From positions 1 through 50,417 of the forward strand of contig JAIPFF010000041.1 of NCBI GenBank assembly GCA_021736785.1: 50,417 nt of DNA, in the 5' to 3' direction. The stretch is from Thiohalocapsa sp. GTDB taxonomy: Bacteria > Pseudomonadota > Gammaproteobacteria > Chromatiales > Chromatiaceae. A program made the translations under genes and the position numbers. Below, one piece after another: positions 8,790 through 49,130 of the stretch. Within the stretch, counting starts at the first letter, position 1, and the number at the start of each line of letters is the position of its first letter. Under the pieces are notes generated by a model that made no database searches, was not told the origin of the DNA, and saw only the letters and a program-made list of their open reading frames with translations.

Positions 8790-8805
8790 AGCAAGGAGCG
8801 GGCCA
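8790..8805 (-). promoter_or_regulatory. Sigma54 (-24/-12) promoter upstream of the PTPS-dmrB operon
   Basis: The minus strand reads TGGCCCGCTCCTTGCT. The GG and GC pairs are separated by exactly ten bases, and the only departure from TGGCACG-N4-TTGCW is one C for A. Predicted transcription start is near 8779, about 33 bases before the ATG at 8745. Confidence 0.75.
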
Positions 8806-8952
8806 TAGGGCCGCGGCAATGCGCCGTCGGAGCGTCGGCGCGCTCGCCCCGCGACCCGAAGGCCGCCACTGCTGGAGAGCGTGGGTCGCACGTGGCCGCG
8901 CCGGACGTCATTCGATGGGCGCGGCTGCGCCGTGCGCGCCGGCCGGCTCCTA

Positions 8953-10890
8953 TCAGCGCGGCGGCTTAATACCGTAGCGCTTCATCTTGCGGTACAGAGT
9001 GTTCCGGCTCAGTGTCAGTTTCGACGCAACCCGGGTCACGTTCCAGTGGGCCGCCTCGAGCTCGCGCAGGATCGCGTCGCGCTCGGCCACATCCAGCGGA
9101 TTGCTCGGCCGCGCGGGCAACTCCAGGCTGTCTTCGCCCAGCAGCAGGTCATCGGGCAGGTCACCGACCCGGATCACGCCGCCCTCGCTCAGGCCCACCA
9201 GCGTGCGCAGGGTATTGCGCAGTTGGCGAATATTGCCGGGCCATTCGTAGGCATCCATGAGTGCCAGGGCCTCCGGCTCGATCTCCAGGCGGTCGGGGCC
9301 GCCGGCCTCGACATCGAGCAGATGCTGGATCAGCTCGCGGCGGTCCTCGCGCTCGCGCAGCGGCGGAAGCTGCAGGCTCAGGCCGTGCAGCCGGTAATAG
9401 AGATCCTCGCGGAAGCCGCCGTCCATGACCTGTTGCTTCAAATTCTGATGAGTCGCGCTGATGAGCTGGATGTCGACGTCGATGGGCGTCTCGCCGCCGA
9501 GCGGAATCACGGCGCGCTCTTCGAGCACCCGCAGCAGCCGCGCCTGGAGCTCCAGCGGCATGTCGCCGATCTCGTCCAGAAACAGCGTGCCTCCGTGGGC
9601 CTGTACGATCTTGCCTCGGCTACCCTCTCGGCTTGCACCGGTGAAGGCGCCGGGCCGATAACCGAAGAGCTCGCTCTCGATCAGCGTCTCGGGGATCGAG
9701 GCACAGTTCACGGCCACGAACGGCTTACTGCGCCGCGGGCCGGCCTGGTGCAGTGCCCGCGCGAAGACATCCTTGCCGGTACCGGTCTCGCCGAGAACGA
9801 TGAACGGAATGTCGCGCTCGATCAGCTTCGCGGCGCGCTCGGCGTTGCGTTTCATGCGGGTATCGCCGAACTGCATGCCATCGAGCGGCAGGCCCGCCGC
9901 AGGCGCTTCCATCGGCGCGAACGCCCGCGGTACCGCCAGGCCCCGGGAATTGCTCTCCATCTGCTCGGACGGCGCTTGGAAGCTGGCGTAGAAGCGCCTG
10001 CCGCCCTGTACGTCGCGCAGCGGCTGAGGATGGGTCGATTGGCGCTGCGCACGCGACAGCGCGTCGTCCGCACGCAGATTGAAGATCTCCTGGATCGGCC
10101 GGCCGGCGATCTCGTCCACCGTCGACAGCCCCAACTGGAATAACGCGCTGCGGTTCGCGGCCCGCAGCCGCCCGCTTGGATCGAAGGCGATGATGCCCTC
10201 GCCGAGCGTGCTGACGAACTCGGGCCGGCTGTGAAAGCGCACCACGTAGTTGTCCCGCATGCGGCAGATAAACAGCCGGTTCTCGATCAATTGCGCCGAC
10301 ATATTCACCAGCGCCACCGTGTGCTGCTGGGCCATGTGCGATTCACTGGATGCATCGAGCACGCCGGCGATCTCTCCGGTGGGCTCGAAGATCGGCGCCG
10401 CAGAGCAGGTCAGCCCGGTGTTCTTGGTGAAAAAATGCTCTTCGCGGTGGACCACGATGGGGCGTTTCTCGACCAGGCAGGTGCCGATGCCGTTGGTCCC
10501 CTGGGCCGACTCCGACCAGCTCGCGCCGTTGACCATGCCGGCGCTCGCCGCCGCGGTGGTGAACAGCGGATCGCCGATATAGTTGAGCACGACGCCGTCG
10601 GCGTCCGACAGCAGGATGGAATAGCCGGAGCCGGCCACCTGCTGGTAAAGGTTGGTCATTTCGGACTTGGCCATCTCCACGAGATGACAGCAGGCTTCCC
10701 GCCGCTCGGCGATGTCCGCCCGGTCGAGTACCTCCGGTTCGTCTCTGCGCTCGGGTGCCAGCCCGAAGTCGTCGATGCATCTGCGCCAGGACTCGAGCAC
10801 GAATGCCCGGTAGTCCGCCGCCGACACGCCGCCGCGGGCGGCGTCGAGCACGGTCGCGCCGTGGCTCGCCGTTTGTAGACCCTCAGCCAT
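8953..10890 (-). CDS. AcoR-type sigma54-dependent transcriptional activator
   Basis: A 645-residue bacterial enhancer-binding protein. The N-terminal 80-210 region is a GAF-like sensor domain of the AcoR type (motifs [43 protein letters not shown]). It is followed by a short PAS-like stretch ([18 protein letters not shown]). The AAA+ domain has Walker A GETGTGKD near residue 368, the sigma54-contact loop GAFTGA near 413 and Walker [13 protein letters not shown] Fis-type helix-turn-helix ([19 protein letters not shown]) forms the C-terminus. The ATG at 10890 has a strong GGAGGAG site. It is last in the reductase-GST-ferredoxin-haemoglobin direction and is the obvious candidate to activate the seven sigma54 promoters in this window. 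Its effector is unknown. Confidence 0.9.
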
Positions 10891-10999
10891 GTTTCTCCTC
10901 CGGGATTGTCGGGAGGCGGGTACGATCGCCGCGCCTCTCTCTTGTCTCTTCTCGAGTGTCTTTGATTGATGCCTCCTCTCTTCGGTGTCGTCTCGCCCG

Positions 11000-12085
11000 C
11001 TACCCCGAACGCCCGCCAGGCATCGTGCTGGCGTCGAGGAATTTGTCGAAGTGAACGGCGTCTTGTGCGACGCCGCGGGCTCGCAAGACCTCGATCGCTG
11101 CATCGATCATTCCGGGCGGACCGCAGAGATAGGCTTGGGCACGCGGCCAATCGATCTCTCGGTCAGCGATATGCTGCGTGACCAAGCCCCGCGCGCCCGT
11201 CCATGGACTGTCCTCGGGCTCCTCCGACAACACAGGCAAGAACTCCATCCGGTGCTCCGGATGCCAACGGGACGCGAGCGACCGCATCTCGTCGAGACAG
11301 TAAAGATCGTCCTTGGTTCTGGCGCCGAACAGGAAGGTCGCATCCCGCGCGCAGCCGCTGTCGGCCGCGTGCTCGAGCAGCGCCTTGATCGCGCTCATGC
11401 CGCTGCCTCCGGCGATGCAAACGATGGGACCGTCCCCGTCGCGCAGCCAGAATGCGCCGTAGGGTCCGCTCGCGGTCAGCGTCGCACCGCGCCTGTCTGC
11501 ATCGAACAGCCAAGTCGTCAGCTCGCCGTTCGGTACCTTACGAATATAGAACGTCAATGTGCTCCGTGCCGCCTCCCCCGGCGGCGTCGCGAACGAATAC
11601 GAACGCGGCGCACCGATGCCGGGAAAGCTCAGATCGGCATATTGGCCGGCCAGGTACTGCTCACCGGATTCGCGCAACGGCTGCTCGAGGCGGACCGTGA
11701 GCTCCATGATGTCGTGGGTCAGCATGCGGGTTTGCGCCAGCTCGCCGGCGACGGTGCCGACTTCGACAGGCGCAGCGCCGGCCGCGTCTAGGTCGATCTC
11801 GACGACCAGATCGCTCTTCGCCTCCGATTGGCAAGCAAGGATCATGCCGCTGTCAAGCTCATCCCCATCCAGGACGTAGGCAAAATCCGACAGCTCCTTC
11901 ACCTTGCCTTCAACGAGCCGCGCCCTGCAAGTCCCGCAGCTGCCGACCCGGCAATCGTGGGGCCAGGGCAGACCGGCGGCGAGCCCGGCCTTGAGCAGAT
12001 TATCGCCGGGCTGAATCTCCAGCGTGTCCCCCGACGGGCGCAGCTGCACGCCGAAGGCTTTCTTGGCTTTTCCGAAACCGAACAT
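11000..12085 (-). CDS. XylA-like oxygenase reductase (2Fe-2S ferredoxin + FAD/NAD domains)
   Basis: A 361-residue electron-transfer protein. Residues 1-95 form a plant-type 2Fe-2S ferredoxin with Cys45, Cys50, Cys53 and Cys85 (HDCRVGSCGTC and ILACQ). Residues 105-210 bind FAD (RSYSFATPP) and the remainder binds NAD (GGSGMSAIKALLE and YLCGPPGMIDAA). Segments such as FGARTKDDLYCLDE and PVLSEEPEDSPW resemble the XylA reductase of xylene monooxygenase more than ferredoxin reductases of Rieske systems, from memory. XylA passes electrons to the membrane di-iron hydroxylase XylM, and a XylM-like protein is encoded at 49240. The start at 12085 gives the MFGFGKAKKAF N-terminus; the longer open frame upstream runs into the GST gene. 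Confidence 0.88.
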   Translation of the reverse strand: MFGFGKAKKAFGVQLRPSGDTLEIQPGDNLLKAGLAAGLPWPHDCRVGSCGTCRARLVEGKVKELSDFAYVLDGDELDSGMILACQSEAKSDLVVEIDLDAAGAAPVEVGTVAGELAQTRMLTHDIMELTVRLEQPLRESGEQYLAGQYADLSFPGIGAPRSYSFATPPGEAARSTLTFYIRKVPNGELTTWLFDADRRGATLTASGPYGAFWLRDGDGPIVCIAGGSGMSAIKALLEHAADSGCARDATFLFGARTKDDLYCLDEMRSLASRWHPEHRMEFLPVLSEEPEDSPWTGARGLVTQHIADREIDWPRAQAYLCGPPGMIDAAIEVLRARGVAQDAVHFDKFLDASTMPGGRSG

Positions 12086-12213
12086 GTTGGATCTGGCCTG
12101 TGGCTGGCAAAGGTGACTGACGACGCCGATCGTCAACGGCATCGCCTGCGGAGCTCCGCGGTAGGCATGCTGCGGCCGCGGCGCCCGAGGCCACTCGCGC
12201 GCCGCGGTGGGGC

Positions 12214-12900: not shown

Positions 12901-12992
12901 GATGTTGTCACTCCTCTCATTTCGTTATTCGGTGGCATGCGCCCGGCCTTGCGCGCGAGCGCCGAACGCGCCGGAGTTTACCGGCGCGGGCG

Positions 12993-13190: not shown

Positions 13191-13215
13191 GATGTTGCCC
13201 TTGCGGTGATAATGA

Positions 13216-13584: not shown

Positions 13585-13713
13585 GGCTCGGATCTCTTCG
13601 GTGGTTGATGCTCGTTGTCGTGTCATCCGCCGCGCGAGAGCGCCGCGACGGCCCGCTCGAAGCGGGGCCACGGCGGATGCCTCGAATCAGACTATCCAAG
13701 CGCCGGCATCGGG

Positions 13714-13732: not shown

Positions 13733-13824
13733 GTGCCGGCGGTGGCGTGATCGGGGCCGTGGGAGGCATGGGAGGGCCCGCGTCGGTCGACAGCCGCGGG
13801 CGCCGGGGGGATGATTGCGGACGT

Positions 13825-16817: not shown

Positions 16818-16821
16818 CGAT

Positions 16822-18006: not shown

Positions 18007-18393
18007 CGTCTGGTGCCTCCTATAGGTTATGCAAGCCTGCCGGGCCGCGCGCCCATGGGCACGATGCAATTGGCGAGCCACCGGAGGGCGTGGTCATCCC
18101 CGCCGCGCGGCGCGGAGCTTCGGCCGCGGGCGGACGGAACAGCCCGATGGCAAAGTGCGCCACTGCCGTGACACTGCTGCGTGGCTGTCTTGCGTGGATG
18201 ACAGTCCGCCGCCGTCATGCCGGCGCCGTCGCGGCGCCGGGCCGGCGCATCACGTAGTCCTGCGTATATCTGCCCACAGTCTCGCCGCATAGCCTTGGAC
18301 CTGCAGCGACGCACAACGTGCGGCGCGTCGCCGTCCGGGCGCTGCTCACGGCGATGCCGTCGACATCAACAAGACACCACAAGCGAGGCAATC
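18007..18393. other. Divergent intergenic region between the flavoprotein operon and osmC
   Basis: 387 bases without a gene. It contains the minus-strand sigma54 promoter at 18065-18080. Upstream of that lies GTGACA at 18168-18173 with a partial opposing TGTC at 18186-18189, at the usual distance for an activator site. I found no sigma54 site facing osmC and no clear -35/-10 pair. Confidence 0.5.
18065..18080 (-). promoter_or_regulatory. Sigma54 (-24/-12) promoter upstream of the flavoprotein-kinase-regulator operon
   Basis: The minus strand reads TGGCTCGCCAATTGCA: GG-N10-GC spacing with one departure (T for A) from the consensus. Predicted start near 18054, 48 bases upstream of the ATG at 18006. 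Confidence 0.78.
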
Positions 18394-25509: not shown

Positions 25510-26022
25510 TCAGGAATGCGCGGCGAACGGATGCGCCTGATCGGACTTGGACGCAACCACGTCCGCGGGCTTCGGATCGCCGGCAATAGCCCGCTTGATG
25601 GATTGCTTGGTGGCCTCGTAGTTATAGTCCTGGATTTTGGCGTCGTCCTTCGCCTCCCAGTGGATGAAGACGCCGACGCAGATAAAGAGGTCGTTCGCCT
25701 CCGCCATCGGAATGGTGCCGTCCTCGACGCAATCGGCCACCGCCATGGCCACCCCACGCTGCGCCGGGCCGAACATCTGAACCGCCTGCGTGGCGCCTTT
25801 GATGGTGACCTTGTTGAACATCATCGTGTGCGGCTTGCAGGGCAGGTTCGGCGCGACGACGGCGAGCAGACTGGTGAAGCCGTCCTTGTTGTTGACCAGA
25901 CCGTTACAGAAAGCGGTCTCCACGGCGGAGCCGCGCGGACCGATGAGCAGATCGATATGAGCGACTTCGTTGCCGTCGCCCACCAGGGATTCGCCGACCA
26001 TCGTGTGATTGATCAAAGCCAT
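25510..26022 (-). CDS. fae: Formaldehyde-activating enzyme Fae
   Basis: A 170-residue protein, full length for the Fae family, which condenses formaldehyde with H4MPT to methylene-H4MPT in the cytoplasm. Family motifs are clear: [15 protein letters not shown] with the conserved histidine, [25 protein letters not shown], and [16 protein letters not shown]. The ATG at 26022 has a GGAGA site. Fae is usually very abundant, and here it is the final gene of the mptG-mtdB-...-citG series, followed by its own terminator. An extra internal promoter for fae is likely but not seen. Confidence 0.97.
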
Positions 26023-31949: not shown

Positions 31950-31961
31950 GGCGGGAGCATC

Positions 31962-31977
31962 AGCAACTCGCGTGCCC
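31962..31977 (-). promoter_or_regulatory. Sigma54 (-24/-12) promoter upstream of mptG...fae
   Basis: The minus strand reads GGGCACGCGAGTTGCT, which contains the perfect core GGCACG-N4-TTGCT with GG-N10-GC spacing. Only the first base (G for T) departs. Predicted start is near 31951, almost at the annotated mptG ATG (31949). Confidence 0.72.
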
Positions 31978-32062: not shown

Positions 32063-32092
32063 TGTCACCGGCGATGAATGGCCTGAGTGACA
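32063..32092. promoter_or_regulatory. Inverted half-sites TGTCAC-N18-GTGACA between divergent sigma54 promoters
   Basis: TGTCAC at 32063-32068 and its inverse GTGACA at 32087-32092 lie in the gap between mptG and fhcD. They are about 87 and 75 bases from the two -24 elements, the usual distance for a sigma54 activator binding site that could serve both promoters. Related words occur upstream of the mtoX (34176-34181) and flavoprotein (18168-18173) promoters. Confidence 0.45.
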
Positions 32093-32165: not shown

Positions 32166-32181
32166 CGGCACGGCCTTTGCT
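32166..32181 (+). promoter_or_regulatory. Sigma54 (-24/-12) promoter upstream of fhcDC
   Basis: CGGCACGGCCTTTGCT has the full GGCACG-N4-TTGCT core and exact GG-N10-GC spacing; the leading T is a C. Predicted start near 32192, about 48 bases before the fhcD ATG. Confidence 0.75.
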
Positions 32182-32239: not shown

Positions 32240-33136
32240 ATGACGTTGAACGGCATCCCCATCGAAGACACCTTCGCCGAGGCCTTCGGCATGAAGGCGA
32301 CGCGTATTCTGATCACGGCCATCGACGGCGAGTGGGCACGTCAGGCCGGCGTCACCATGACCGGCTTCGCCACCTCGGTAATCGGATGCGGCGTCGAGGC
32401 GGGCATCGAGCGGGAGCTGGCCGCGGAAGAAACCCCGGACGGTCGGCCCGGCGTCAGCGTGCTGCTGTTCGGCATGTCCGGCAAGGACCTGGCCAAGCAT
32501 CTGGAGCGCCGTGTCGGCCAATGCGTGCTGACCTGCCCGACCACGGCGGTGTTCGCCGGCATGGACGGCGAGGAGCGGCTGCCGCTGGGCAAGAACCTGC
32601 GCTTCTTCGGCGACGGCTGGCAGATCGCCAAGCTGATCGGCGGCCGCCGCTTTTGGCGTGTCCCGGTGATGGACGGCGAATTCGTGGCGGAGGAGACCAC
32701 CGGGCGCTGCCCGGCGGTGGGGGGCGGCAATTTCCTGGTGCTGGCCCGCTCTCAGCGCGCCGCCTTGGACGCCTGCCAAGCGGCAGTCGCCGCCATGCGC
32801 GGCCTGCCCAACGTGATCATGCCGTTCCCGGGCGGGATCGTGCGCTCCGGCTCCAAGGTGGGCTCGCGCTACAAGGCGCTGATGGCTTCCACCAACGAGC
32901 GCTACTGCCCGACACTGCGCGGCTTGACCGAGCCCGTGCTCGGCGCCGACGTGGGCTGCGTGATGGAGATCGTGGTCAACGGCCTGACGCCGGAGGACAC
33001 CGCCGCGGCCATGGGCACCGGCATCGCGGCAGCCTGCGCGGGGGGCCGCGACGCGGGCGTGCTTGGCATTACCGCGGGCAACTACGGCGGCAAGCTCGGC
33101 CAGTACCACTTCCGTCTGCACGAGGTCGCCGCATGA
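32240..33136 (+). CDS. fhcD: Formylmethanofuran:H4MPT formyltransferase (Ftr/FhcD)
   Basis: A 298-residue Ftr-family protein, full length. It transfers the formyl group between H4MPT and methanofuran; in methylotrophs it acts in the formyltransferase/hydrolase complex Fhc that releases formate. Family motifs: DTFAEAFGMKATRILITA at the N-terminus, TGFATSVIGCGVEAGIE, and FPGGIVRSGSKVGSRYK near residue 200. Its stop overlaps the fhcC start as ATGA. Unusually, fhcA and fhcB are not next to it: the gene is first in its transcript, behind its own sigma54 promoter. Confidence 0.96.
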   Translation: MTLNGIPIEDTFAEAFGMKATRILITAIDGEWARQAGVTMTGFATSVIGCGVEAGIERELAAEETPDGRPGVSVLLFGMSGKDLAKHLERRVGQCVLTCPTTAVFAGMDGEERLPLGKNLRFFGDGWQIAKLIGGRRFWRVPVMDGEFVAEETTGRCPAVGGGNFLVLARSQRAALDACQAAVAAMRGLPNVIMPFPGGIVRSGSKVGSRYKALMASTNERYCPTLRGLTEPVLGADVGCVMEIVVNGLTPEDTAAAMGTGIAAACAGGRDAGVLGITAGNYGGKLGQYHFRLHEVAA

Positions 33137-33942
33137 GCACGTTGACCCTGACCCAGCACGCGCCGACGCCCCAGCGCCTGGACCTGAGCGGGCTGATCCC
33201 CGAGCGCCTGGCCGGACTCGGAGCGGCGCAGATCGCCCGGTTGCCGATTCATGTCGGCAACCGCACGGTGCCCCTCGGCGAGCTGTTCGCGATCGACGGC
33301 AGTCCCGGCACGTCACTCGTCGTCGTTCCCGCCGCCGGCAACCTGGACGGCCTCGGCAGCGGCATGCGCGACGGGGAGCTGCGCGTGGAAGGCGACGCCG
33401 GGCGGCGCGCGGCGGCGGGCCTTGCCGGCGGCAGCGTCGTCATCACGGGCGACGTCGGCGACGAGGCGGGCAGCGGCATGTCCGGCGGGCGGCTGACCAT
33501 CGCCGGCAATGCCGGCGCGCGACTGGGCGGCCCGACCACGGGCGCCACGCAGGGCATGAGCGGGGGCACGATCCTGGTCCGGGGCAGCGCCGGTGCCCGC
33601 GCCGGCGAGCGGCTGCGCCGCGGCACCATCGTCATCGCCGGCGACTGCGGCAATGACGCCGGGGTCAACATGATCGCCGGCACGCTGGCGATCATCGGAA
33701 CCGCCGGGCGGATGACCGGCAGCGGCATGCGCCGCGGGACGATTCTGCTGTCCCGGCCACCCGCATCCCTGCCGGTGACGTTCGCCGACAACGGCGTGCA
33801 GGATCTGACCTTTATGGCGGTGTTGCTGCGCGAGATCGCGACCATGACCGACATCGGCCCATGGGGCACGCCGCGCCCCGCGCGCCGCCTGCTCGGCGAC
33901 ATCGCCGACGGCGGCATGGGCGAGATTCTGCTGCCGAACTGA
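33133..33942 (+). CDS. fhcC: Formylmethanofuran dehydrogenase subunit C-like protein FhcC
   Basis: A 269-residue protein related to FmdC/FwdC and to the glutamate synthase C-terminal domain. Residues 75-200 form a parallel beta-helix made of repeats such as GSGMRDGELRVEGDAG, GSGMSGGRLTIAGNAG and QGMSGGTILVRGSAG. FhcC is a structural subunit of the Fhc complex with FhcA (amidohydrolase), FhcB and FhcD. It is translationally coupled to fhcD by an ATGA overlap. FhcA and FhcB must be encoded outside this window for the complex to work. Confidence 0.95.
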   Translation: MSTLTLTQHAPTPQRLDLSGLIPERLAGLGAAQIARLPIHVGNRTVPLGELFAIDGSPGTSLVVVPAAGNLDGLGSGMRDGELRVEGDAGRRAAAGLAGGSVVITGDVGDEAGSGMSGGRLTIAGNAGARLGGPTTGATQGMSGGTILVRGSAGARAGERLRRGTIVIAGDCGNDAGVNMIAGTLAIIGTAGRMTGSGMRRGTILLSRPPASLPVTFADNGVQDLTFMAVLLREIATMTDIGPWGTPRPARRLLGDIADGGMGEILLPN

Positions 33943-34159: not shown

Positions 34160-34178
34160 ACACCCCGGGCAGGGGTGT
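34160..34178. promoter_or_regulatory. Inverted repeat ACACCCC-N5-GGGGTGT upstream of the mtoX promoter
   Basis: A perfect 7-base inverted repeat with a 5-base spacer, centred about 90 bases upstream of the -24 element. It overlaps TGTCAC (34176-34181), and another GTCAC lies at 34155-34159. Position and symmetry suit a binding site for a sigma54 activator. Confidence 0.45.
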
Positions 34179-34256
34179 CACCGCTGCGGCCCAGTTCATC
34201 GTCGCAGGACGGGCAATACCGCTTCCATGGCGCGGGCCGGCGTCCGCGGCGGCAGT

Positions 34257-34272
34257 TGGCACTCTTGTTGCA
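34257..34272 (+). promoter_or_regulatory. Sigma54 (-24/-12) promoter upstream of mtoX
   Basis: TGGCACTCTTGTTGCA has perfect TGGCAC and TTGCA elements with GG-N10-GC spacing. Predicted transcription start is near 34283. Confidence 0.82.
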
Positions 34273-34416: not shown

Positions 34417-35826
34417 ATGAAAACACTGACCACCCCATTTCACCGGCTGCGTCGGTCCTGCACCGCTGCCGCCCTCGCGACCTGCTCGACCCTGGCGATC
34501 GGGATGCTCCCTGCCACCGTCAGCGCCGATGAGACCTGCGTCTCGCCCTATTCGCCGAAGATCACGGGCCAGGAGCAGTTCGTGCACGTCTGGACCCTCG
34601 GCGTAAAGGGCCTGGGCGACGAGCAGGACAAGCTCGTAACCATCGATACCGATCCGAAATCGGAGACCTTCGGCCAGGTCATCCACAGCCTCTCCGTGGG
34701 CGGGCGCAACGAGGCCCATCACTCGGGCTACAGCGACGACCGCCGGTATCTTTGGGCCGGCACCCTGGACACCAACAAGATCTTCATCTTCGACGTCCAT
34801 ACCGATCCGAGTAAGCCGAAGCTGCATAAGGTCATCGACGACTTCGTCGCGGCCACCGGCGGCGTGGTCGGGCCCCACAGCTTCTTCGCCCTGCCCGGTC
34901 GCATGATGATCAGCGCCCTGTCCAACAACAAGGACCACGGCGGCCGCACGGCGATGGTGGAATACACCAACGACGGCGAATTCGTGGAAACCTACTGGAT
35001 GCCCACGGACGACGACCTGCGGGGTGCCGAGAAGACCGGCAACTACGCCGACGGCTACGGCTATGACGTGCGCTTCCTGCCGGCCAAGAACATCATGGTG
35101 ACCAGTTCCTTCACCGGCTGGTCCAACTACATGATGGACTTCGGCCAGATGCTGAACGACCCCGAGGCCATGAAGCGCTTCGGCAACACCGCCATGGTGT
35201 GGGATCTGCACAAGCGCGAGCCGCTGAAGATCTTCGACATCCCCGGCGCCCCGCTGGAAATCCGTTGCACCTGGGGCAGCAACTACTGCTTCACCACCAC
35301 CGCTCTGACCTCCAAGATCTGGCTCATCTACGAGGACAAGAACGAAGGCTGGACGGCCCGCGAAGTGGGCACCATCGGCGACCCTTCCAAGGTGCCGCTG
35401 CCGGTGGCCTTCTCCATCAGCGCCGACGACAGCACCCTGTGGGTCAACACCTTCATGGACGGCACCACCCGTCGGTTCGACGTCTCCGACCCCTTCAACG
35501 CCAAGCTGATGAGCGAGCACAAGATCGGCTCCCAGGTGAACATGGTCTCCCAGAGCTGGGACGGCGAGCGGCTGTACTTCACCTCGTCGTTGCTGGGTAA
35601 CTGGGACAAGAAGGGCGAGGCCGACGAGCAGTTCCTGCGGATGTACAACTGGGACGGCGAGAACCTGGTCCTCGGGTTCGAGGTGGACTTCTACAAGGAG
35701 AAGCTGGGGCGTGCCCACCTCATGACCTTCAACTCCAACGAGCTCTTCAAAACCAATATCGCCGGGCAAGAGAAGCCGGAAGCGCAGTTGGATGACGCCG
35801 TGGCCCTCGCGGATCCGGCCGACTAA
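34417..35826 (+). CDS. mtoX: Periplasmic methanethiol oxidase (SBP56 family)
   Basis: A 469-residue member of the selenium-binding-protein-56 family with a long Sec-type signal peptide (about 37 residues, ending PATVSA before DETC). Bacterial SBP56 proteins with signal peptides are copper-dependent methanethiol oxidases that convert CH3SH, O2 and H2O to formaldehyde, H2S and H2O2. Family segments include GGRNEAHHSGYSDDRRYLW, GPHSFFALPGRMMISALSN and NTFMDGTTRRFDVSDP. Histidines that could bind copper (EAHHSG, GPHSF) are present. The ATG at 34417 follows a GGAGGAG site. Downstream SCO1/MauG genes, as seen with other mtoX genes, support the call and suggest metal insertion or cofactor maturation. 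Confidence 0.93.
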   Translation: MKTLTTPFHRLRRSCTAAALATCSTLAIGMLPATVSADETCVSPYSPKITGQEQFVHVWTLGVKGLGDEQDKLVTIDTDPKSETFGQVIHSLSVGGRNEAHHSGYSDDRRYLWAGTLDTNKIFIFDVHTDPSKPKLHKVIDDFVAATGGVVGPHSFFALPGRMMISALSNNKDHGGRTAMVEYTNDGEFVETYWMPTDDDLRGAEKTGNYADGYGYDVRFLPAKNIMVTSSFTGWSNYMMDFGQMLNDPEAMKRFGNTAMVWDLHKREPLKIFDIPGAPLEIRCTWGSNYCFTTTALTSKIWLIYEDKNEGWTAREVGTIGDPSKVPLPVAFSISADDSTLWVNTFMDGTTRRFDVSDPFNAKLMSEHKIGSQVNMVSQSWDGERLYFTSSLLGNWDKKGEADEQFLRMYNWDGENLVLGFEVDFYKEKLGRAHLMTFNSNELFKTNIAGQEKPEAQLDDAVALADPAD

Positions 35827-39937: not shown

Positions 39938-40019
39938 GCGGGAGACCGGGCGCCTACGGCGAGTTGGAACAGCTCGTGCTTCGGTTTCTGCACGATAGCC
40001 ATTGGATCGAATCGGCCTC

Positions 40020-41278: not shown

Positions 41279-42235
41279 TCAGCCCGCCGGCCCAGTTGGA
41301 CCCGCCGGCCCCGCGATGGCCGCGGCGGTATCGGCGGCCTGGCGGTTGGCGGCCACATCATGCACCCGAAAGACGCGCACGCCGGCGGCGACGCCGAGGG
41401 CGGTCGTCGCGCAAGTGGCATGCACCAGCGCGGCCGGATCGCTCTCCGCGCAGATCGCGCCCATGAAGCGCTTGCGGCTGGTCCCGAGCACAAGCGGGTA
41501 ACCGAGATCGGCCAGGCGGCCGAGTCCGGCGAGCAGCGCCAGGTTATGGGCGCGGCGCTTACCGAAGCCGATGCCGGGGTCGAGCAGGATGCGCTCCGGG
41601 GCGACGCCGGCGGCCAGCGCCGCGCGGGTCCTGTCGGCGAGGAAGCCGCACACCTCGGCGACGACGTCGTCATAGCGCGGGTCGTCCTGCATGGTCGCCG
41701 GCTCACCGCGCCGGTGCATCAGCACGATAGGCGCCGCGCGCTCCGCCGCCAGGGCCAGCATGCCGGGTGCATCGCGCCCGGCGGATGTGTCGTTGATCCA
41801 GTCGGCGCCGGCATCGAGGGCGGCGCGGGCGACCTCGTCGGAGGTGCTGTCGATGCTGATGACCGCCCGGTGCCCGGGCCCGGTCTCCACCGAGCGGGCG
41901 ATCATATCGCGCACCGCGCGGATCACGCCGACAACACGCCGGCACTGCTCCGAGGCCGGCACGGGCGCGGCCCCCGGGCGGGTCGACTCGCCGCCGACGT
42001 CGATGATGTCCGCGCCCTCGCGCAGCATCTGCGAGGCACGCTGCACGGCGCGCTCGACGCCCGAATAACACCCGCCGTCGGAGAAGCTGTCCGGCGTGAC
42101 ATTGAGAATGCCCATGATCAGCGGGCGCGGGTCGCGCTCGAAGCCGGGCACAACCGCGGCCCGCACCCGTGCCGGCGCATCGCCGTCCGACGTGCGCATG
42201 CCGCCGAGCGCATCGCCGCGCGGCGGCGCCTTCAA
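41279..42235 (-). CDS. folP: Dihydropteroate synthase
   Basis: A 318-residue classical DHPS. Motifs: IMGILNVTPDSFSDGG, GADIIDVGGESTRPGA, and ILLDPGIGFGKRRAHNLALL with LVLGTSRKRFMG. It joins dihydropterin diphosphate to 4-aminobenzoate in folate synthesis, or to the MptG product in H4MPT synthesis. The genome has a second, divergent DHPS-like gene at 6211, so the two may divide folate and H4MPT duties. The N-terminal 35 residues and the GP-rich C-terminus are extensions. Its ATG overlaps the fdsD stop (ATGA), tying it to the formate dehydrogenase operon. Confidence 0.94.
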   Translation of the reverse strand: MKAPPRGDALGGMRTSDGDAPARVRAAVVPGFERDPRPLIMGILNVTPDSFSDGGCYSGVERAVQRASQMLREGADIIDVGGESTRPGAAPVPASEQCRRVVGVIRAVRDMIARSVETGPGHRAVISIDSTSDEVARAALDAGADWINDTSAGRDAPGMLALAAERAAPIVLMHRRGEPATMQDDPRYDDVVAEVCGFLADRTRAALAAGVAPERILLDPGIGFGKRRAHNLALLAGLGRLADLGYPLVLGTSRKRFMGAICAESDPAALVHATCATTALGVAAGVRVFRVHDVAANRQAADTAAAIAGPAGPTGPAG

Positions 42236-42453
42236 CCGAGCCGCTGCCCGTGCTCGCGCAGGGCCCGTTCCACCAGCGGGACAAGGGTCTCGTTGCCCGC
42301 GCTCGCCTGCTCCAGCAGGATGCGCCGCATGCGCGGATCCCAGAAGCGCGCGATGTGATCGGCGACACCGGCGCTGGCGGCCACGGGATCGGGCTCGCTG
42401 GCATAGAACGCCGCGATCTGGTTGGCCATTTCAATCAGCCGCTTGGGGTCCAT
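42232..42453 (-). CDS. fdsD: NAD-dependent formate dehydrogenase delta subunit
   Basis: A 73-residue FdsD-family protein: MDPKRLIEMANQIAAFYAS at the N-terminus, then VADHIARFWDPRMRRILLE, the family signature. The delta subunit belongs to soluble molybdenum FDH complexes and is needed for full activity. It overlaps the fdhD end by 23 bases and the folP start by four. Confidence 0.92.
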   Translation of the reverse strand: MDPKRLIEMANQIAAFYASEPDPVAASAGVADHIARFWDPRMRRILLEQASAGNETLVPLVERALREHGQRLG

Positions 42454-43309
42454 CGCTCGGGTCTCCTCCGCCCTCCGGCAGCACGCGCTGCGGATAGCTG
42501 TAAAGGGTGTATCGGTCGCCGCGCACGAAGGCCGCCAGCGTCACGCCGCTGCGCTCGGCGGCACGGATGGCCATCCCAGTCGGCGCGGAAATGGCCGCCA
42601 GCAGGCGGATACCCACCGTGGCCGATTTCTGCACCATCTCGAAGCTGGCGCGGCTGGTAATCAGCGCGAAGCCTTCGGCGAAGTCCGTTTGCCGGTGCAC
42701 CAAGGCACCGACCAGTTTATCCAGCGCGTTGTGGCGGCCGATGTCCTCGCGCACGCAGAGAATGCGCCCGTCGGCGTCCGACCAGGCCGCGGCATGCACG
42801 CCGCCGGTGGCGGCGTGAAAAGGCTGGCGTTGCTGCAATTCCTCGGCGGCTCGGCGCAGCGAGCCGGCACTGATCGGCGGCGCCCCGGCCACGCGCGGCA
42901 GCGCGCGCTCGACCTGCGCCAGATCCTCCAGGCCGCAGAGCCCGCAGCCCGTGCGCCCGGCGAGATTGCGCCGGCGCTCCTTCAGCGCCGCGAAGGCCGG
43001 GCCCGCCACGCGCAAGTGCAGCGTGATGCCCTGCTCGGAGCGGGCGGCCTCCAGGGCGTGCAGCTCGCGCGCATCGCCGAGCAGCCCCTCGGTCAGCAGG
43101 AAGCCGAGGGCGAAGTCTTCGACGTCCGCCGGCGTCGCCAGCATCACCGCATAGGGCAGGTGGTTGATGACCAGCGCCACCGGCATCTCTTCCGGGACGC
43201 TCTCGCCGAAGTGCTCGCTGCCGCTGCGATCGCCGCGCACGGCCGCGACGCGCACGACACCGGGGGGCAGCACGATGCGCGCCGGGGGAACGGGATCAGC
43301 CGGGCGCAC
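42431..43309 (-). CDS. fdhD: Formate dehydrogenase sulfurtransferase FdhD/FdsC
   Basis: A 292-residue FdhD-family protein that transfers sulfur from a cysteine desulfurase to the bis-MGD cofactor, activating FDH. The cysteine motif TGCGLCGLEDL is near residue 125, and CVREDIGRHNALDKLVGA and LITSRASFEMVQK are typical. I place the start at a GTG (43307-43309), which lies seven bases after a GGGGAG site and overlaps the fdsA end by 14 bases. The longer open frame enters fdsA and adds unrelated residues. Confidence 0.93.
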   Translation of the reverse strand: MRPADPVPPARIVLPPGVVRVAAVRGDRSGSEHFGESVPEEMPVALVINHLPYAVMLATPADVEDFALGFLLTEGLLGDARELHALEAARSEQGITLHLRVAGPAFAALKERRRNLAGRTGCGLCGLEDLAQVERALPRVAGAPPISAGSLRRAAEELQQRQPFHAATGGVHAAAWSDADGRILCVREDIGRHNALDKLVGALVHRQTDFAEGFALITSRASFEMVQKSATVGIRLLAAISAPTGMAIRAAERSGVTLAAFVRGDRYTLYSYPQRVLPEGGGDPSDGPQAAD

Positions 43310-46145
43310 CGTCGCGCTCCCCTGCAAGCAGCGCGGTCTGCTCCGCATCGAAGCGCGCATAGTCGCGCTGCCAGGCCGACGGGCTCTCGACGCGCGCCAC
43401 CTGCACCGCGGTCACCTTGTACTCGGGGCAGTTGGTTGCCCAGTCCGAGTTCTCGGTGGTGACGACGTTGGCCCCGGAGGCAGGCCAATGGAAGGTGGTG
43501 TAGACGACGCCGGGCTGCATGCGCTCGCTGACCGTCGCGCGCAGCACGGTGACGCCGGCGCGGCTCTCGATGCTGACCGCGTCGCCGTGGCGGATGCCGC
43601 GGTCTTCGGCGTCGGCGGGGTGGATCTCCAGGCGGTCCTCCTCGTGCCAGCGGATGTTGGCGGTGCGCCTTGTCTGGGCGCCGACGTTGTACTGACTGAG
43701 GATGCGGCCCGTGGTCAGCAGCAGCGGGAAACGCCGCGTGCTGCGCTCGTCGGTGGCCAGATACTCGGTCAGCAGGAAGCGCCCCTTGCCGCGAACGAAC
43801 GCATCGACGTGCATCGTCGGCGTGCCCTCAGGCTGCTCGTCGTTGCAGGGCCACTGCAGGCTGCCGAGGCGATCGAGCTTGTCGAACGAGACGCCGGCGA
43901 AGGTGGGCGTGAGGCGGGCGATCTCGTCCATGATCTCGGCGGGGTGCCCGTAGTGCATCGGATAGCCCAGCGCGTTCGCCAGCAGTTGGGTGACCTCCCA
44001 GTCCGCGTAACCCGCCAAAGGCTCGACGACCTTGCGCACCGGGGAGATGCGCCGCTCGGCATTGGTAAAGGTGCCGTCCTTCTCCAGGAAGCTCGACCCC
44101 GGCAGGAACACATGGGCGTACTTGGCCGTCTCGTTCAGGAAGATGTCCTGCACGATCAGGCATTCCAGGGACTCGAGCGCCGCCGTGACGTGGTGGGTGT
44201 TCGGATCGGACTGGGCGATGTCCTCGCCCTGCACGTAGAGCCCTTTGAAGCCGCCGGCGACGGCGGCGTCGAGCATGTTGGGGATGCGCAGGCCCGGCTC
44301 CGGCGAAATGGACACGCCCCAGGCGGCTTCGAAGGCGGCGCGCGTGACCGCGTCCGAGACATGCCGGTAGCCCGGCAGCTCGTGCGGGAACGAGCCCATA
44401 TCGCAGGCGCCCTGCACGTTGTTCTGACCGCGCAGCGGATTGACGCCGACGCCGGGGCGGCCGATGTTGCCCGTCGCCATGGCCAGGTTGGCGATGCCCA
44501 TGACCATGGTCGAGCCCTGGCTGTGCTCGGTGACGCCGAGGCCGTAGTAGATCGCCGCATTGCGGGCCGTGGCATAGAGTCGGGCGGCGCCGCGCAGGTC
44601 CGCGGGGGCGACACCGGTGATTTCCGCGACCGCCTCCGGCGAATGGCGGGGATCGGCGATGAACTCGCGCCACTTGTCGAAGGAGTCGCCCTCGCAGCGC
44701 GCGGCCACGAAGTCCTCGTCGATCAGCCCCTCGGTTACGGCCACATGGGCCAAGGCATTCACCAGCGCCACGTTGGTGCCGGGACGCAGCGGCAGATGGT
44801 AGGCGGCGCGGACATAGGGGGTGTCCACCAGATCGATGGCGCGGGGGTCGGCGACGATGAGCTTCGCGCCCTCGCGCAGTCGGCGCTTGAGCCTGGAGGC
44901 AAACACCGGATGGCCGTCGGTGGGGTTGGCGCCGATCAGCAGCACCACGTCCGCATCGAGCACGGAATCGAAGTCCTGGGTGCCGGCGGATTCCCCCATG
45001 GTCTGCTTCAGCCCGTAGCCGGTCGGCGAATGACAGACACGGGCGCAGGTGTCCACGTTGTTCACGCCGAACGCTGTGCGGACCAGTTTCTGGACCAGAT
45101 AGGTCTCCTCGTTGGTGCAGCGCGAGGACGTGATGCCGCCGATGGACTCGGCGCCGTACGCGTGCTGCAGGCGGCGCAGCTCGGACGCGGCATGACCGAT
45201 GGCCTCCTCCCAGCTGACCTCGCGCCAGGGATCGCGGATGGAGTTGCGGATCATCGGCTTGGTGATGCGGTCGCCGTGGGTGGCATAGCCCCAGGCAAAC
45301 CGGCCCTTGACGCAGGCGTGGCCGTGGTTGGCGCCGCCGTCCGCGTCCGGCACCATCCGCACCAGGGTGTCGCCTTGCAGCTCCGCCTTCAGCGAGCAGC
45401 CGACGCCGCAATAGGCGCATGTGGTGGTGATGCTGCGCTGCGGGGTGCCCAGCTCGACCACGGTTTTCTCCATCAGCGAGGCGGTGGGACAGGCGGCGAC
45501 GCAGGCGCCGCAGGAGACGCACTCGGAGTGCATGAAGTCCTCGCCGCCGGCGGCGGCGATGCGCGAGCCGAAGCCGCGCTCGGTACTGGTCAGCGCAAAG
45601 GTGCCCTGAATCTCGCCGCAGGCGCGCACGCAGCGCGAGCAGACGATGCACTTGGACGGATCGAAGTCGAAATAGGGGTTGGAGCGGTCGGCGGGCTCGT
45701 GCACGTGGCTCTCGCCCTCGGCGTAGCGCACCTCGCGCAGCCCGACGCGCCCGGCCATATCCTGCAGCTCGCAGTCGCCGTTGGCGGAACAGGTCAGGCA
45801 GTCCAGCGGATGGTCGGAGATGTAGAGCTCCATGACGTTGCGCCGCAGCTCCGCCACCGCGGGCGTCTCGGTGGAGACCTCCATGCCGGGCTCGACCAGC
45901 GTGGTACAGGAGGCCGGAAAGCCGCGCTTGCCGGCGATCTGCACGACGCACAGGCGGCAGGAGCCGAAGGCCTCCAGCTGCTCGGTGGCGCAGAGCTTGG
46001 GAATGGCGATGCCGGCCTCCGCGGCGGCCCGCATGACGGAGGTGCCGGGCGCTGTGCGCACCGGGATGCCGTCGATGGTCAGTTCCACGGTGGCCTCGCC
46101 GGCGCGGGCCGGCGTGCCGAGGTCTCGTGCTTGCAGCAGGCTCAT
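43296..46145 (-). CDS. fdsA: NAD-dependent formate dehydrogenase alpha subunit
   Basis: A 949-residue molybdenum catalytic subunit. The N-terminus is a 2Fe-2S domain (LCATEQLEAFGSCRLC), followed by the His-Cys3 site (DHPLDCLTCSANGDC). Two 4Fe-4S ferredoxin motifs follow, CIVCSRCVRAC and CVSCGACVAACP, then the catalytic-domain cluster CAYCGVGCSL near residue 245. The molybdenum ligand is a cysteine, in CARVCHSPTG, not selenocysteine. The C-terminal MGD-binding domain has TTGRILSQYNVGAQTRR and TFHWPASGANVVT. It oxidises formate to CO2 in the cytoplasm, completing formaldehyde oxidation. The order fdsG-B-A-C-D is canonical; ends overlap by four bases with fdsB. Confidence 0.97.
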   Translation of the reverse strand: MSLLQARDLGTPARAGEATVELTIDGIPVRTAPGTSVMRAAAEAGIAIPKLCATEQLEAFGSCRLCVVQIAGKRGFPASCTTLVEPGMEVSTETPAVAELRRNVMELYISDHPLDCLTCSANGDCELQDMAGRVGLREVRYAEGESHVHEPADRSNPYFDFDPSKCIVCSRCVRACGEIQGTFALTSTERGFGSRIAAAGGEDFMHSECVSCGACVAACPTASLMEKTVVELGTPQRSITTTCAYCGVGCSLKAELQGDTLVRMVPDADGGANHGHACVKGRFAWGYATHGDRITKPMIRNSIRDPWREVSWEEAIGHAASELRRLQHAYGAESIGGITSSRCTNEETYLVQKLVRTAFGVNNVDTCARVCHSPTGYGLKQTMGESAGTQDFDSVLDADVVLLIGANPTDGHPVFASRLKRRLREGAKLIVADPRAIDLVDTPYVRAAYHLPLRPGTNVALVNALAHVAVTEGLIDEDFVAARCEGDSFDKWREFIADPRHSPEAVAEITGVAPADLRGAARLYATARNAAIYYGLGVTEHSQGSTMVMGIANLAMATGNIGRPGVGVNPLRGQNNVQGACDMGSFPHELPGYRHVSDAVTRAAFEAAWGVSISPEPGLRIPNMLDAAVAGGFKGLYVQGEDIAQSDPNTHHVTAALESLECLIVQDIFLNETAKYAHVFLPGSSFLEKDGTFTNAERRISPVRKVVEPLAGYADWEVTQLLANALGYPMHYGHPAEIMDEIARLTPTFAGVSFDKLDRLGSLQWPCNDEQPEGTPTMHVDAFVRGKGRFLLTEYLATDERSTRRFPLLLTTGRILSQYNVGAQTRRTANIRWHEEDRLEIHPADAEDRGIRHGDAVSIESRAGVTVLRATVSERMQPGVVYTTFHWPASGANVVTTENSDWATNCPEYKVTAVQVARVESPSAWQRDYARFDAEQTALLAGERDGAPG

Positions 46146-47707
46146 CGAATCTCCTCCGGCTCCCGGGCGGCCAGCCCGAAGTCTTCAGGATAGTGGTTCA
46201 AGGCGGACAGCACCGGAAACGGTGTCATCCCGCCCATGGCGCAGAGCGACCCGTCAACCATGGTCCGGCATAGGTCGCGCAACAGGGTATCGTTGTTGGC
46301 GCTGCCGTCGCCGTCGCGGTTCGCGATCATGCGGTCGAGCAGCTCGACGCCGCGCACGGAGCCGATCCGGCAGGGCGTGCATTTGCCGCAGGACTCCTCG
46401 GCGCAGAAGGCCATCGCATAGCGGGCCATGGCGGCCATGTCGACGGCGTCGTCGAAGACCACCAGACCGCCGTGCCCGATGGTGCCGCCGCCGGCGGCAA
46501 AGGACTCGTAGTCCAGCACCAGGTCGAACTGCGCCTCGGGCAGATAGGCTCCCAGCGGGCCGCCCGCCTGCACGGCGCGGATCGGCCGCCCGCTAGCGGT
46601 TCCGCCGCCGAAGTCGTAGAGCAGCTCGCGCAGCGTCAGGCCGAACGGCACTTCCACCAGCCCGGGCCGAGCGCAATTGCCAGCAAGCTGAAACGCCAGC
46701 GTGCCGCGGGATCGGCCGACGCCCTTGGATGCATAGGCCTCGGCGCCGTCGGCCAGCACGGCCGGTACGCTGGCCAGGGTGATGACGTTGTTGACCACGG
46801 TGGGCAGGCCGAACAGGCCCTCGACGGCCGGCAGCGGCGGCTTGGCCCGGACCAGGCCGCGCTTGCCCTCGATGCTCTCCAGCAGCGACGTCTCCTCGCC
46901 GCACACGTACGAGCCGGCGCCCTTGATCAGCTCGACCCGAAAGCGCTTGCCGCTGCCGAGCAGGTCGTGGCCGAGCAGACCCGCCTGCTCGGCGCGCTCG
47001 ATGGCGGCAGTCAGCGTACGCCAGGCATGGGGATACTCGGAGCGCAGATAGATGAAGCCGTGGTCGGCACCGACGGCGAGGCCGGCGATGGCCATCCCCT
47101 CCAGCAGCGTGTAGGGGTCGCCCTCCATCAGCATCCGGTCGGAAAAGGTACCGGAGTCGCCCTCGTCCGCGTTGCAGACGATGTATTTCTGCGGGCCCTG
47201 CGTGCCGGCCACGGTGCGCCACTTGATGCCGGTGGGAAAACCCGCCCCGCCGCGCCCGCGCAGCCCCGAGGCCTCGACGGTGTCGACGATTTCGACCGAG
47301 GTCTTCACGAGCGCGGCCTCGAGCCCGCGCAGGCCGCCGTGGGCGCGGTAGTCGTCCATCGACAGCGGGTCGATGACGCCCACGCGCTCGAAGGTCACGC
47401 GCGTCTGCGCCGCCAGATAAGGCATCTCCGCCGTCGGACCGAGGCACAGCGGGTGATCGGCGCCCTCGGCGATGGCATCGAGCAGTCCCGGCACGTCGTC
47501 GACGCCCACCGGGCCGTAGGCAACGCGCACGCCGTCTCGCTCGACCTCGACCAGCGGCTCGAGCCAGTAGAGCCCGCGGGAGCCGTTGCGGATCGGCGCC
47601 GGCGCCAGCCCGCGTTGGCTGCACTGCGCGGCAATCGCCATCGCGACCTCGTCGGCGCCGACGGAGACGGCCCCGGAATCGCCGGGCACGAAGATGCGCG
47701 GGCTCAT
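46142..47707 (-). CDS. fdsB: NAD-dependent formate dehydrogenase beta subunit
   Basis: A 521-residue NuoF-like diaphorase subunit. An N-terminal thioredoxin-like region (1-115) precedes the FMN and NADH site GLRGRGGAGFPTGIKWRTV and NADEGDSGTFSDR. The 4Fe-4S motif ESCGKCTPCRIG lies near residue 440. It passes electrons from FdsA to NAD. The start at 47707 overlaps the fdsG stop (ATGA), and the stop overlaps fdsA. Confidence 0.96.
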   Translation of the reverse strand: MSPRIFVPGDSGAVSVGADEVAMAIAAQCSQRGLAPAPIRNGSRGLYWLEPLVEVERDGVRVAYGPVGVDDVPGLLDAIAEGADHPLCLGPTAEMPYLAAQTRVTFERVGVIDPLSMDDYRAHGGLRGLEAALVKTSVEIVDTVEASGLRGRGGAGFPTGIKWRTVAGTQGPQKYIVCNADEGDSGTFSDRMLMEGDPYTLLEGMAIAGLAVGADHGFIYLRSEYPHAWRTLTAAIERAEQAGLLGHDLLGSGKRFRVELIKGAGSYVCGEETSLLESIEGKRGLVRAKPPLPAVEGLFGLPTVVNNVITLASVPAVLADGAEAYASKGVGRSRGTLAFQLAGNCARPGLVEVPFGLTLRELLYDFGGGTASGRPIRAVQAGGPLGAYLPEAQFDLVLDYESFAAGGGTIGHGGLVVFDDAVDMAAMARYAMAFCAEESCGKCTPCRIGSVRGVELLDRMIANRDGDGSANNDTLLRDLCRTMVDGSLCAMGGMTPFPVLSALNHYPEDFGLAAREPEEIR

Positions 47708-48159
47708 CGGCCCTGCCCCGCGATGAGTTGCTCCAGCCGCAACGCGCTGACCCGCCCGAGGACTCGGCCGTCGATCTCCGCAGCCGGCGAACAGGCGCAG
47801 TTGCCGAGGCAATACACCGCCTCGATCGTCACCGCCGGCGCACCCGCCGCCGACTCGTGCAGCGCCGCGGCGCAGCGCTCCGCGTGGGCCGCGAGGGCTT
47901 CGCTGCCCATCGCCTGGCACGACTCGGCGCGACAGATGCGTAACAGCCTGCCGGCCCGCGGCGCGCGCCGGAAGTCGTGATAGAAACCGATCACGCCTTC
48001 CACGTCTGCGCGGGAGACATTGTGGGACTTGGCCAAGGCGGCGATGGCGTCGTCCGGAATATGGTCGAGTTGCTCCATCAGGGCATGCAATGCGGGCAGC
48101 AATCCGTGCGGCGCGGTGTCGGCGCCGGCATGCGGCGGGGAAGGCGCTTGTTCTGACAT
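47704..48159 (-). CDS. fdsG: NAD-dependent formate dehydrogenase gamma subunit
   Basis: A 151-residue NuoE-like 2Fe-2S protein. Cluster cysteines are in ICRAESCQAMGSE and VYCLGNCACSPAA. The helical N-terminal half (IAALAKSHNVSRADVEGVIGFYHDF) is typical of the family. It is the first gene of fdsGBACD. I start at the ATG at 48159; the frame is open for 34 more codons upstream, but those residues are not conserved and the region holds an inverted repeat. A sigma54 promoter lies at 48273. Confidence 0.94.
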   Translation of the reverse strand: MSEQAPSPPHAGADTAPHGLLPALHALMEQLDHIPDDAIAALAKSHNVSRADVEGVIGFYHDFRRAPRAGRLLRICRAESCQAMGSEALAAHAERCAAALHESAAGAPAVTIEAVYCLGNCACSPAAEIDGRVLGRVSALRLEQLIAGQGR

Positions 48160-48195
48160 CGGCTCGGGCTCCGGGAGTACGGCGGACAATCCGGC

Positions 48196-48218
48196 GCACT
48201 GCCGACGAACGGCAGTGC
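48196..48218. repeat. Perfect inverted repeat in the fds leader
   Basis: GCACTGCCG and CGGCAGTGC pair perfectly around the loop ACGAA. It lies 37-59 bases upstream of fdsG, within the predicted 5' leader. It could be an operator or an RNA hairpin that affects fdsG translation; there is no T-run. Confidence 0.55.
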
Positions 48219-48272
48219 CGGAACGCCTGAAAATGGCGATGGCGCTGATAGCAGGCTTCAACAGCCGTCAGG

Positions 48273-48288
48273 AGCAAAGGGCGGGCCA
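48273..48288 (-). promoter_or_regulatory. Sigma54 (-24/-12) promoter upstream of fdsGBACD
   Basis: The minus strand reads TGGCCCGCCCTTTGCT: GG-N10-GC spacing, one C for A in the -24 box. It is almost the same as the site at 8790. Predicted start near 48262, giving a leader of about 103 bases. Confidence 0.75.
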
Positions 48289-48557
48289 ATGTCCGCCTCC
48301 GGTATCGATTACAGCCTCCGTCGATGGGTCGGCATGCCGCCCCGCACGGCGTTTCACGCTCCCGCAAGCCGGGGCGGCGAAGGCAAGCGATGGATCCGAC
48401 TCGCCGCGCGCGCCGACCGGTCGGAGCGCTCCCGGTGCAACGCCGGGCGCAACAGGTCAATGACAGACTGTCCCGGCAGCGGGACCGCTCTCGGCCCGAC
48501 GCGGCGGCGAAAACCGCGCTCCGCGCTGCCGGCGCTCGGGGCGCGTCGGGCAGCGCG

Positions 48558-49073
48558 TCAGGCCGTCCCGGGGCGCGGCGCGGATTGCGCGCAGGAGAGG
48601 ATCTGGCGGTAGCGCAACAGCCCCTGCAACTCGGCGACCGGCCGGCCAACGACCGGATGCAGCGTCTCGGGTGCAATCTCGATCAGCGGGATCAGCATGA
48701 AATCGCGCTCCGTCAGGCCGGGATGCGGCAGCGACAGATCGGGCTCGGCAAGGACCCGGTCGCCGAACAGCAGCAGATCGATATCGATGGTGCGCGGACC
48801 GTTGCGCAGCAAACGCTTACGGCCAAGCTCGACTTCGATGGCTTGGGTGGCCCGCAGCAGCTCCATCGGCTCGAGCGCGGTACGCATGCCGACGACCAGA
48901 TTCACGAACTCGGCCTGATCCTCGACGCCCCAGGGTCGCGTGCGATACCAGGACGACTCGTCCTCCAGCACCGCGCCGGGAATGCGCTCGAGCAGGTCCA
49001 GGCAGCGCAGCAGGTTCCAGCGTGGGTCGATATTCGAGCCGAGGCCGAGAAACACCTGGTTGAGCTGCGTCAT
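48558..49073 (-). CDS. folK: 2-amino-4-hydroxy-6-hydroxymethyldihydropteridine diphosphokinase
   Basis: A 171-residue HPPK. Motifs: VFLGLGSNIDPRWNLLRCL at the N-terminus and GPRTIDIDLLLFGDRV with LPHPGLTERDFMLIPL. It activates the pterin with diphosphate for DHPS, a step shared by folate and H4MPT synthesis. A sigma54 promoter at 49115 lies 42 bases upstream. So, unusually, this pterin gene appears to be controlled with the C1 genes. It is divergent from the XylM-like gene. Confidence 0.95.
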   Translation of the reverse strand: MTQLNQVFLGLGSNIDPRWNLLRCLDLLERIPGAVLEDESSWYRTRPWGVEDQAEFVNLVVGMRTALEPMELLRATQAIEVELGRKRLLRNGPRTIDIDLLLFGDRVLAEPDLSLPHPGLTERDFMLIPLIEIAPETLHPVVGRPVAELQGLLRYRQILSCAQSAPRPGTA

Positions 49074-49114
49074 GGATGGGCATCTTCGCGGCGGGACATT
49101 GGTTGGGGTTGGTT

Positions 49115-49130
49115 AGCAAATGCCGTTCCA
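49115..49130 (-). promoter_or_regulatory. Sigma54 (-24/-12) promoter upstream of folK
   Basis: The minus strand reads TGGAACGGCATTTGCT, with exact GG-N10-GC spacing and a single change (A for C) in the -24 box. Predicted start near 49104, 31 bases before the ATG. Confidence 0.72.

Follow-up and report, generated by a model that had tools for sequence, protein, structure and literature searches.

A probable sigma54-dependent regulon for tetrahydromethanopterin, formate and methanethiol metabolism in Thiohalocapsa sp.

AcoR-like proteins are sigma54 enhancer-binding proteins with 216 members in six phyla or classes (PMC3162934). A protein of this type is encoded at 8953-10890 of a 50,417-nucleotide stretch of Thiohalocapsa sp. 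DNA (contig JAIPFF010000041.1; 'the window', meaning this whole stretch), within an island of genes for one-carbon (C1) metabolism, including the synthesis of tetrahydromethanopterin (H4MPT). Seven elements of sigma54 type precede transcription units of this island, and we consider it probable that they define a sigma54-dependent C1 regulon for H4MPT, formate and methanethiol metabolism, driven by the activator at 8953-10890. The window activator shares with AcoR-like proteins a GAF sensor part, an AAA+ domain with GAFTGA and a Fis-type helix-turn-helix (HTH), and presumably acts in the same mode; AcoR, however, is named for acetoin metabolism, and no acetoin genes were found among the scanned window genes.

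Other described systems resemble parts of this locus. In Methylosinus sporium 5, an RpoN motif of the YGGCR-N6-TTGC type precedes the nif and nitrate genes, but RpoN is linked there with nitrogen genes, and the methane and central carbon genes are associated with RpoD motifs (PMC12403871). In the window it is the C1 genes that carry the sigma54 element. The mtoX gene of Ruegeria pomeroyi, which is induced by methanethiol, has SCO1 and MauG-like neighbours as in the window; the gene immediately upstream of it encodes an IclR-type regulator (PMC5739008), where window mtoX has a sigma54 element instead. The C1 cluster of Candidatus Thiodiazotropha, with its full H4MPT pathway, resembles that of the window, but a xoxF-like methanol dehydrogenase is reported there (PMC8307296), whereas the window genome has no TIGR03075 match over the cut-off. 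Methanol was rejected as a plain substrate, this family yielding two fragments at E 2e-4, neither over the cut-off. Paraburkholderia phymatum was considered as prior art and also rejected, as its fhcA and formyltransferase genes are listed as higher in bacteroids and not as RpoN-dependent (PMC5748707). Among the matches listed by a literature search of mostly open-access coverage, no title or abstract describes sigma54 control of H4MPT, fae, methanethiol oxidase or methylotroph formaldehyde genes. This is consistent with the original prediction, in which sigma54 control of such a programme was not known to be described; as far as the literature search reaches, a sigma54 regulon that serves H4MPT metabolism together with that of formate and methanethiol would be new.

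The elements were searched with the pattern TGGCMCG-N4-TTGCW, which had been fitted in the original prediction to these same sites, and with the reversed pattern as control. The pattern closely resembles the consensus that textbooks give for sigma54. On the minus strand, a perfect element (TGGCCCG-CTCC-TTGCT, 8790-8805) precedes the PTPS-dmrB-DHPS-like unit, with the ATG at 8745, 44 bases on; an element at 18065-18080 (one mismatch) precedes an acyl-CoA-dehydrogenase-like/histidine kinase/FixJ-like operon (ATG 18006, 58 bases on), one at 31962-31977 (one mismatch) the mptG...fae unit (ATG 31949, 12 bases on), a second perfect element at 48273-48288 fdsGBA-fdhD-fdsD (ATG 48159, 113 bases on), and one at 49115-49130 (one mismatch) folK (ATG 49073, 41 bases on). 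On the plus strand, elements with one mismatch each precede fhcDC, which is divergent from mptG (32166-32181; ATG 32240, 58 bases on), and mtoX (34257-34272; ATG 34417, 144 bases on). All seven thus lie where they had been placed and on the strands then given, with no or one mismatch and with GG-N10-GC spacing retained throughout; the distance to the in-frame ATG that each faces had been put at 10-160 bases and measures 12-144 (7/7).

Their density in the window is above chance. The window is C83 among the 96 contigs of the 5.2 Mb assembly, with 69% G+C. At up to one mismatch it holds 7 matches, precisely the elements listed above, versus 2 for the reversed control, and the genome 132 (60 + 72) versus 99; from the genome rate 1.28 matches are expected in the window (Poisson P(>=7) = 3.7e-4). 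At up to two mismatches 22 window matches compare with 18.3 expected from shuffles, and this threshold is therefore uninformative in the window. One alternative is that chance matches in G+C-rich DNA, singled out by a reader in search of them, account for some or all of the elements, and that the genes use other promoters. About one match would indeed be expected at the stricter setting, and the count at two mismatches equals expectation, but the placement of the elements speaks against chance. Outside the window, 27 of 125 matches were classed by position, and one more stops at a contig end; an open reading frame (ORF) on the same strand lies directly downstream in 7 of the 27 by strict and 9 by lenient assessment, versus 7/7 upstream and oriented in the window (Fisher 0.0006 and 0.002, respectively). 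We regard a chance origin as very improbable, and the seven elements are in all likelihood real sigma54-type promoters, judged by their sequence and setting.

Further evidence comes from the rest of the genome, in which rpoN itself is encoded (C23:84649-86088; hidden Markov model (HMM) match over the cut-off). The formyltransferase/hydrolase complex requires FhcA and FhcB as well, neither of which was found in the window. On contig C59, fhcB (8348-9565; TIGR03129, E 6e-56, below the cut-off) is followed by fhcA (9616-11211; TIGR03121, over the cut-off), and 12 bases beyond the end of a perfect element at C59:8242-8257 there is an ATG in frame with fhcB. This element was already in the genome match list before fhcB was sought; because a pre-listed element turned out to precede fhcBA, sigma54 control is supported and a chance origin disfavoured. 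By its element, fhcBA most likely belongs to the same C1 regulon. There are eight perfect matches in the genome, two in the window and one before fhcB; the others precede nifV (over the cut-off), a pilin gene, an SsuA-family gene (below the cut-off) and a family-less ORF, and one lies at a contig end. The proposal of sigma54 control is thus supported by the fhcBA element, by rpoN, by the perfect matches before nifV and the pilin gene, and by recurrence at the heads of orthologous operons, as described below. Two names given by eye to genes behind elements were discarded: the carbonic-anhydrase-like gene matched no family by HMM, and the NrtA-like one scored in the SsuA family instead, below the cut-off. 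Contig C8 carries four elements (L015, L016, L017 and L018) within 12 kb, of which two clearly and two possibly precede genes for related, repeat-containing proteins of a single large family.

A scan for Mch returned at least 80 loci, and among the matches listed 49 other H4MPT genomes were compared, 13 of which encode a long ortholog of the activator (49-66% identity). In the 45 genomes with a readable region upstream of mptG, an element with up to two mismatches and with GG and GC kept was found in 12/12 genomes with an activator ortholog versus 2/33 without; the opposite strand gave one match in each group, and the reversed pattern none in either. A second tally used a different region and a grouping into activator-bearing genomes, genomes without activator and genomes set apart, and found the mptG element in 12/12, 1/31 and 3/3, and an fhcB element in 6/9, 0/24 and 2/3, respectively. 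An element before fhcB also occurs in G012, in G016 and, when the pattern is relaxed slightly, in G075; G016 encodes an ortholog of the activator and has the mptG element as well. Elements precede the fds genes in G016, G060, G062, G086 and G070 (perfect in G070), and in G012 a perfect element precedes PTPS (L043) and a two-mismatch element mtoX. No elements were found before hisAF (0/13 activator-bearing genomes, 0/46 others), mfnD (0/13, 0/40) or pabB (0/10, 0/37), nor before mfnF and ptps2 in activator-bearing genomes; before the internal gene fae they number 0/12 and 2/58. Because relatives with the same regulator gene keep the element before a key pathway gene, one activator probably serves the whole programme. 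A TATAAT- or TACAAT-like stretch was seen by eye upstream of mptG in the activator-less loci L057, L059, L061, L062 and L070, as if a sigma70 promoter replaced the sigma54 one there.

Several observations weigh against a common sigma54 regulon. At up to one mismatch the mptG element is found in 5/12 genomes with the activator versus 2/33 without, and it occurs without a close activator ortholog at L058 (G064) and L097 (G087), the latter genome encoding homologs of the activator at 43% identity, one of them on a contig equal in length to the one that carries its mch. Recurrence at other units of activator-bearing genomes is weak, with 1/8 for fhcD and 2/9 for PTPS, and the folK element (0/2 relatives) and the acyl-CoA-dehydrogenase-like element (0/1) do not recur; poor recurrence of the folK, fhcD and mtoX elements would fit a chance origin of these. 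Chance matches with up to two mismatches also occur before internal genes, namely mch (3/13 activator-bearing, 1/66 others), mptN (1/12, 5/61) and orf28 (1/13, 1/36). Finally, a family-less ORF was called on the minus strand (L190, 7549-8310) whose 5' end overlaps the element before fhcB.

The relatives are also nearly one clade, a point in favour of a chance origin. An Mch tree gathers the element-bearing rows, except L093, in a single group of 15 with weak support; the group consists of 12 rows with the activator, L058, L097 and an Azospirillum row with neither element nor activator. The activator orthologs lie on one side of a branch with a Shimodaira-Hasegawa-like approximate likelihood ratio (SH-aLRT) support of 92. 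The tree yields three independent pairs when supported branches are counted and five when every branch is; one agrees and two show no difference, and with so few pairs no evolutionary test of the association between activator and mptG element is possible; a Fisher value of 3e-9 for this association was rejected as such a test, the rows being nearly one clade. The recurrence therefore shows shared descent with conservation of the motif, not many independent gains, and the argument rests on the motif having been kept while the sequence around it changed: the mptG element keeps its position among relatives that differ in its spacer and flanking sequence, which speaks against chance.

The activator gene (8953-10890, minus strand) is intact and encodes GAF, PAS_4, Sigma54_activat and HTH_8 domains, with the GAF at the N-terminus, the GAFTGA loop in the AAA+ domain and the Fis-type HTH at the C-terminus. 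Its ORF opens at 11103, and orthologs mostly align from residue 59-103, so the start is likely at 10890. Matches in the PDB are NtrC-type proteins, over the AAA+ part and in some cases also the HTH; no curated NCBIfam cut-off is reached, including that of AcoR proper (25 of 26 families, among the matches listed). The activator adjoins dmrB in 11 of the 13 other genomes with an ortholog, seven with PTPS between and four with dmrB alone, and the remaining two orthologs sit on short contigs (3 and 4 kb). In a search of 56 genomes taken as relatives, mch is present in five, G000, G012 and G016 of the family and the more distant G036 and G045, and the activator is found at E <= 1e-130 in G000, G012 and G016 only, which are the family members with mch. 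Its naming as the regulator is likely correct, given its place beside dmrB and its confinement to mch-bearing members of the family. The other nine genomes of the genus (G001-G009) have neither mch nor the activator, and the C1 island is therefore patchy within the genus.

From 18006 to 8953 all genes run in one direction behind the 18065 element (acyl-CoA-dehydrogenase-like, kinase, FixJ-like, globin-like, a small ORF, glutathione S-transferase (GST)-like, reductase and activator), in places overlapping and elsewhere separated by gaps that reach about 150 bases. The activator gene may be the end of an operon starting at this element, which would give positive feedback by autoregulation. In G062, a second activator copy (L156, G062:C86) lies beside mtoX and a set of acyl-CoA-dehydrogenase-like, kinase, FixJ-like, globin and GST genes like that of the window, and the activator of G012 (L127, G012:C1:400927-402909) has two stop codons within the aligned stretch.

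The sites through which the activator might act were sought upstream of the elements. TGTCA/TGACA half-sites number 23 before mptG versus 3.0 expected, a count reached by 0/500 shuffles and spread over 12 of the 14 regions; before fdsG there are 4 versus 1.5 expected (32/500 shuffles), and in the window's remaining five promoters, with mptG and fhcD set aside, 4 versus 0.79 expected (3/500 shuffles), all figures that flatter the enrichment because the motif was chosen after looking. In the window, half-sites are present at the mptG/fhcD, acyl-CoA-dehydrogenase-like, mtoX and fdsG promoters: a candidate activator site TGTCAC-N18-GTGACA in the mptG-fhcD interval (32063-32092), with similar half-sites in relatives; two TGTCA half-sites upstream of the 18065 element (18169-18203); one TGTCA upstream of the mtoX element (34176-34180); and GGGACAGTCTGTCAT upstream of fds (48460-48474), two mismatches from GTGACA-N3-TGTCAC. 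The half-sites are thus a candidate target of the activator.

Their uneven distribution bears on a second alternative, in which the promoters are of sigma54 type but are served by separate activators (PTPS and folK, for example, by a different enhancer-binding protein of the genome, or by a regulator of nitrogen or sulfur metabolism), so that there is no single C1 regulon. No half-site precedes folK, and PTPS has just one, 208 bases upstream. The palindrome GTGACA-N3-TGTCAC failed as a regulon marker, with 8 window matches at up to three mismatches (12.6 expected) and, at up to two, 58 genome matches (control 112); enrichment is put forward solely for the half-sites before mptG. At E <= 1e-60 the activator also has eight matches in the genome, and the perfect elements before nifV, pilin and SsuA-family genes indicate that other sigma54 circuits exist. 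On the other hand, in most activator-bearing genomes the activator gene adjoins PTPS-dmrB, activator and mptG element co-occur, and folK looks dedicated to the pathway, because its relatives adjoin fdsD in G070 and G075 and it is one of three copies in the genome (the others at C87:12054-12443 and C38:33364-33738). We consider separate activators rather unlikely, though less so than chance, and favour a single C1 regulon.

In such a regulon, RpoN-RNA polymerase would bind the -24/-12 elements of the seven window units (PTPS-dmrB, the acyl-CoA-dehydrogenase-like/kinase operon, mptG...fae, fhcDC, mtoX, fds and folK) and of fhcBA. The activator would sense a C1-related signal through its GAF-PAS part and bind the TGTCA/TGACA half-sites about 75-210 bases upstream, and the promoters would be opened together, so that H4MPT synthesis and the oxidation of formaldehyde, formate and methanethiol would start as one programme.

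The head genes of some units may be translated from leaderless mRNAs, which are predicted because an ATG lies where the sigma54 transcript should begin. An in-frame ATG lies 11-14 bases past the element in 7 of 14 mptG promoters, and exactly 12 bases past it in five (window 31949-31977, L042, L066, L080 and L093); the frequency at this distance is 0.375 per codon versus 0.032 elsewhere in the first 110 bases, in a tally of related mptG rows made after the observation. For fhcB, an in-frame ATG 12-14 bases past the element was found in two of six promoters examined, those of the window's genome (L190:8242-8272) and of G012. The fuller proposal, that one activator runs the whole H4MPT/formate/methanethiol programme via sigma54 with head genes as leaderless mRNAs, is put forward tentatively and is somewhat doubtful as a whole.

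The genes behind the elements were identified by HMM scans, which confirmed the earlier gene names. The island includes DHPS-like, dmrB-like, PTPS-like, pabB, MfnF-, MfnD-, MptN- and HisAF-like genes, folP and folK. The dmrB-like and PTPS-like genes, for H4MPT synthesis (7683-8745, minus), score below their family cut-offs, and folK (HPPK) lies at 48558-49073 (minus) and may be dedicated to H4MPT synthesis. The mptG...fae unit starts with mptG (30876-31949, minus) and includes mch (27802-28758) and fae (25510-26022); fhcD and fhcC occupy 32240-33942 (plus), mtoX, the methanethiol oxidase gene, 34417-35826 (plus, over the cut-off), and the formate dehydrogenase genes fdsG, fdsB, fdsA, fdhD and fdsD 42232-48159 (minus). 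Beside these and the sigma54 activator, the island holds the flavoprotein-kinase-FixJ operon, two MauG-like genes and ResA-like and SCO1-like genes. With fhcBA on contig C59, the genome has fae, mch, fhcABCD and mptG of H4MPT-linked formaldehyde oxidation, fhcB being below its cut-off.

If the proposal is true, a master switch would be named for the H4MPT pathway of Gamma- and Betaproteobacteria that oxidise sulfur, including symbionts of clams, and cofactor synthesis would be switched on jointly with the enzymes that oxidise formaldehyde, formate and methanethiol. Both a promoter motif and a regulator gene are supplied, which makes the proposal directly testable, and the motif offers a route to more C1 genes in genomes in which these are scattered, as with fhcBA here.

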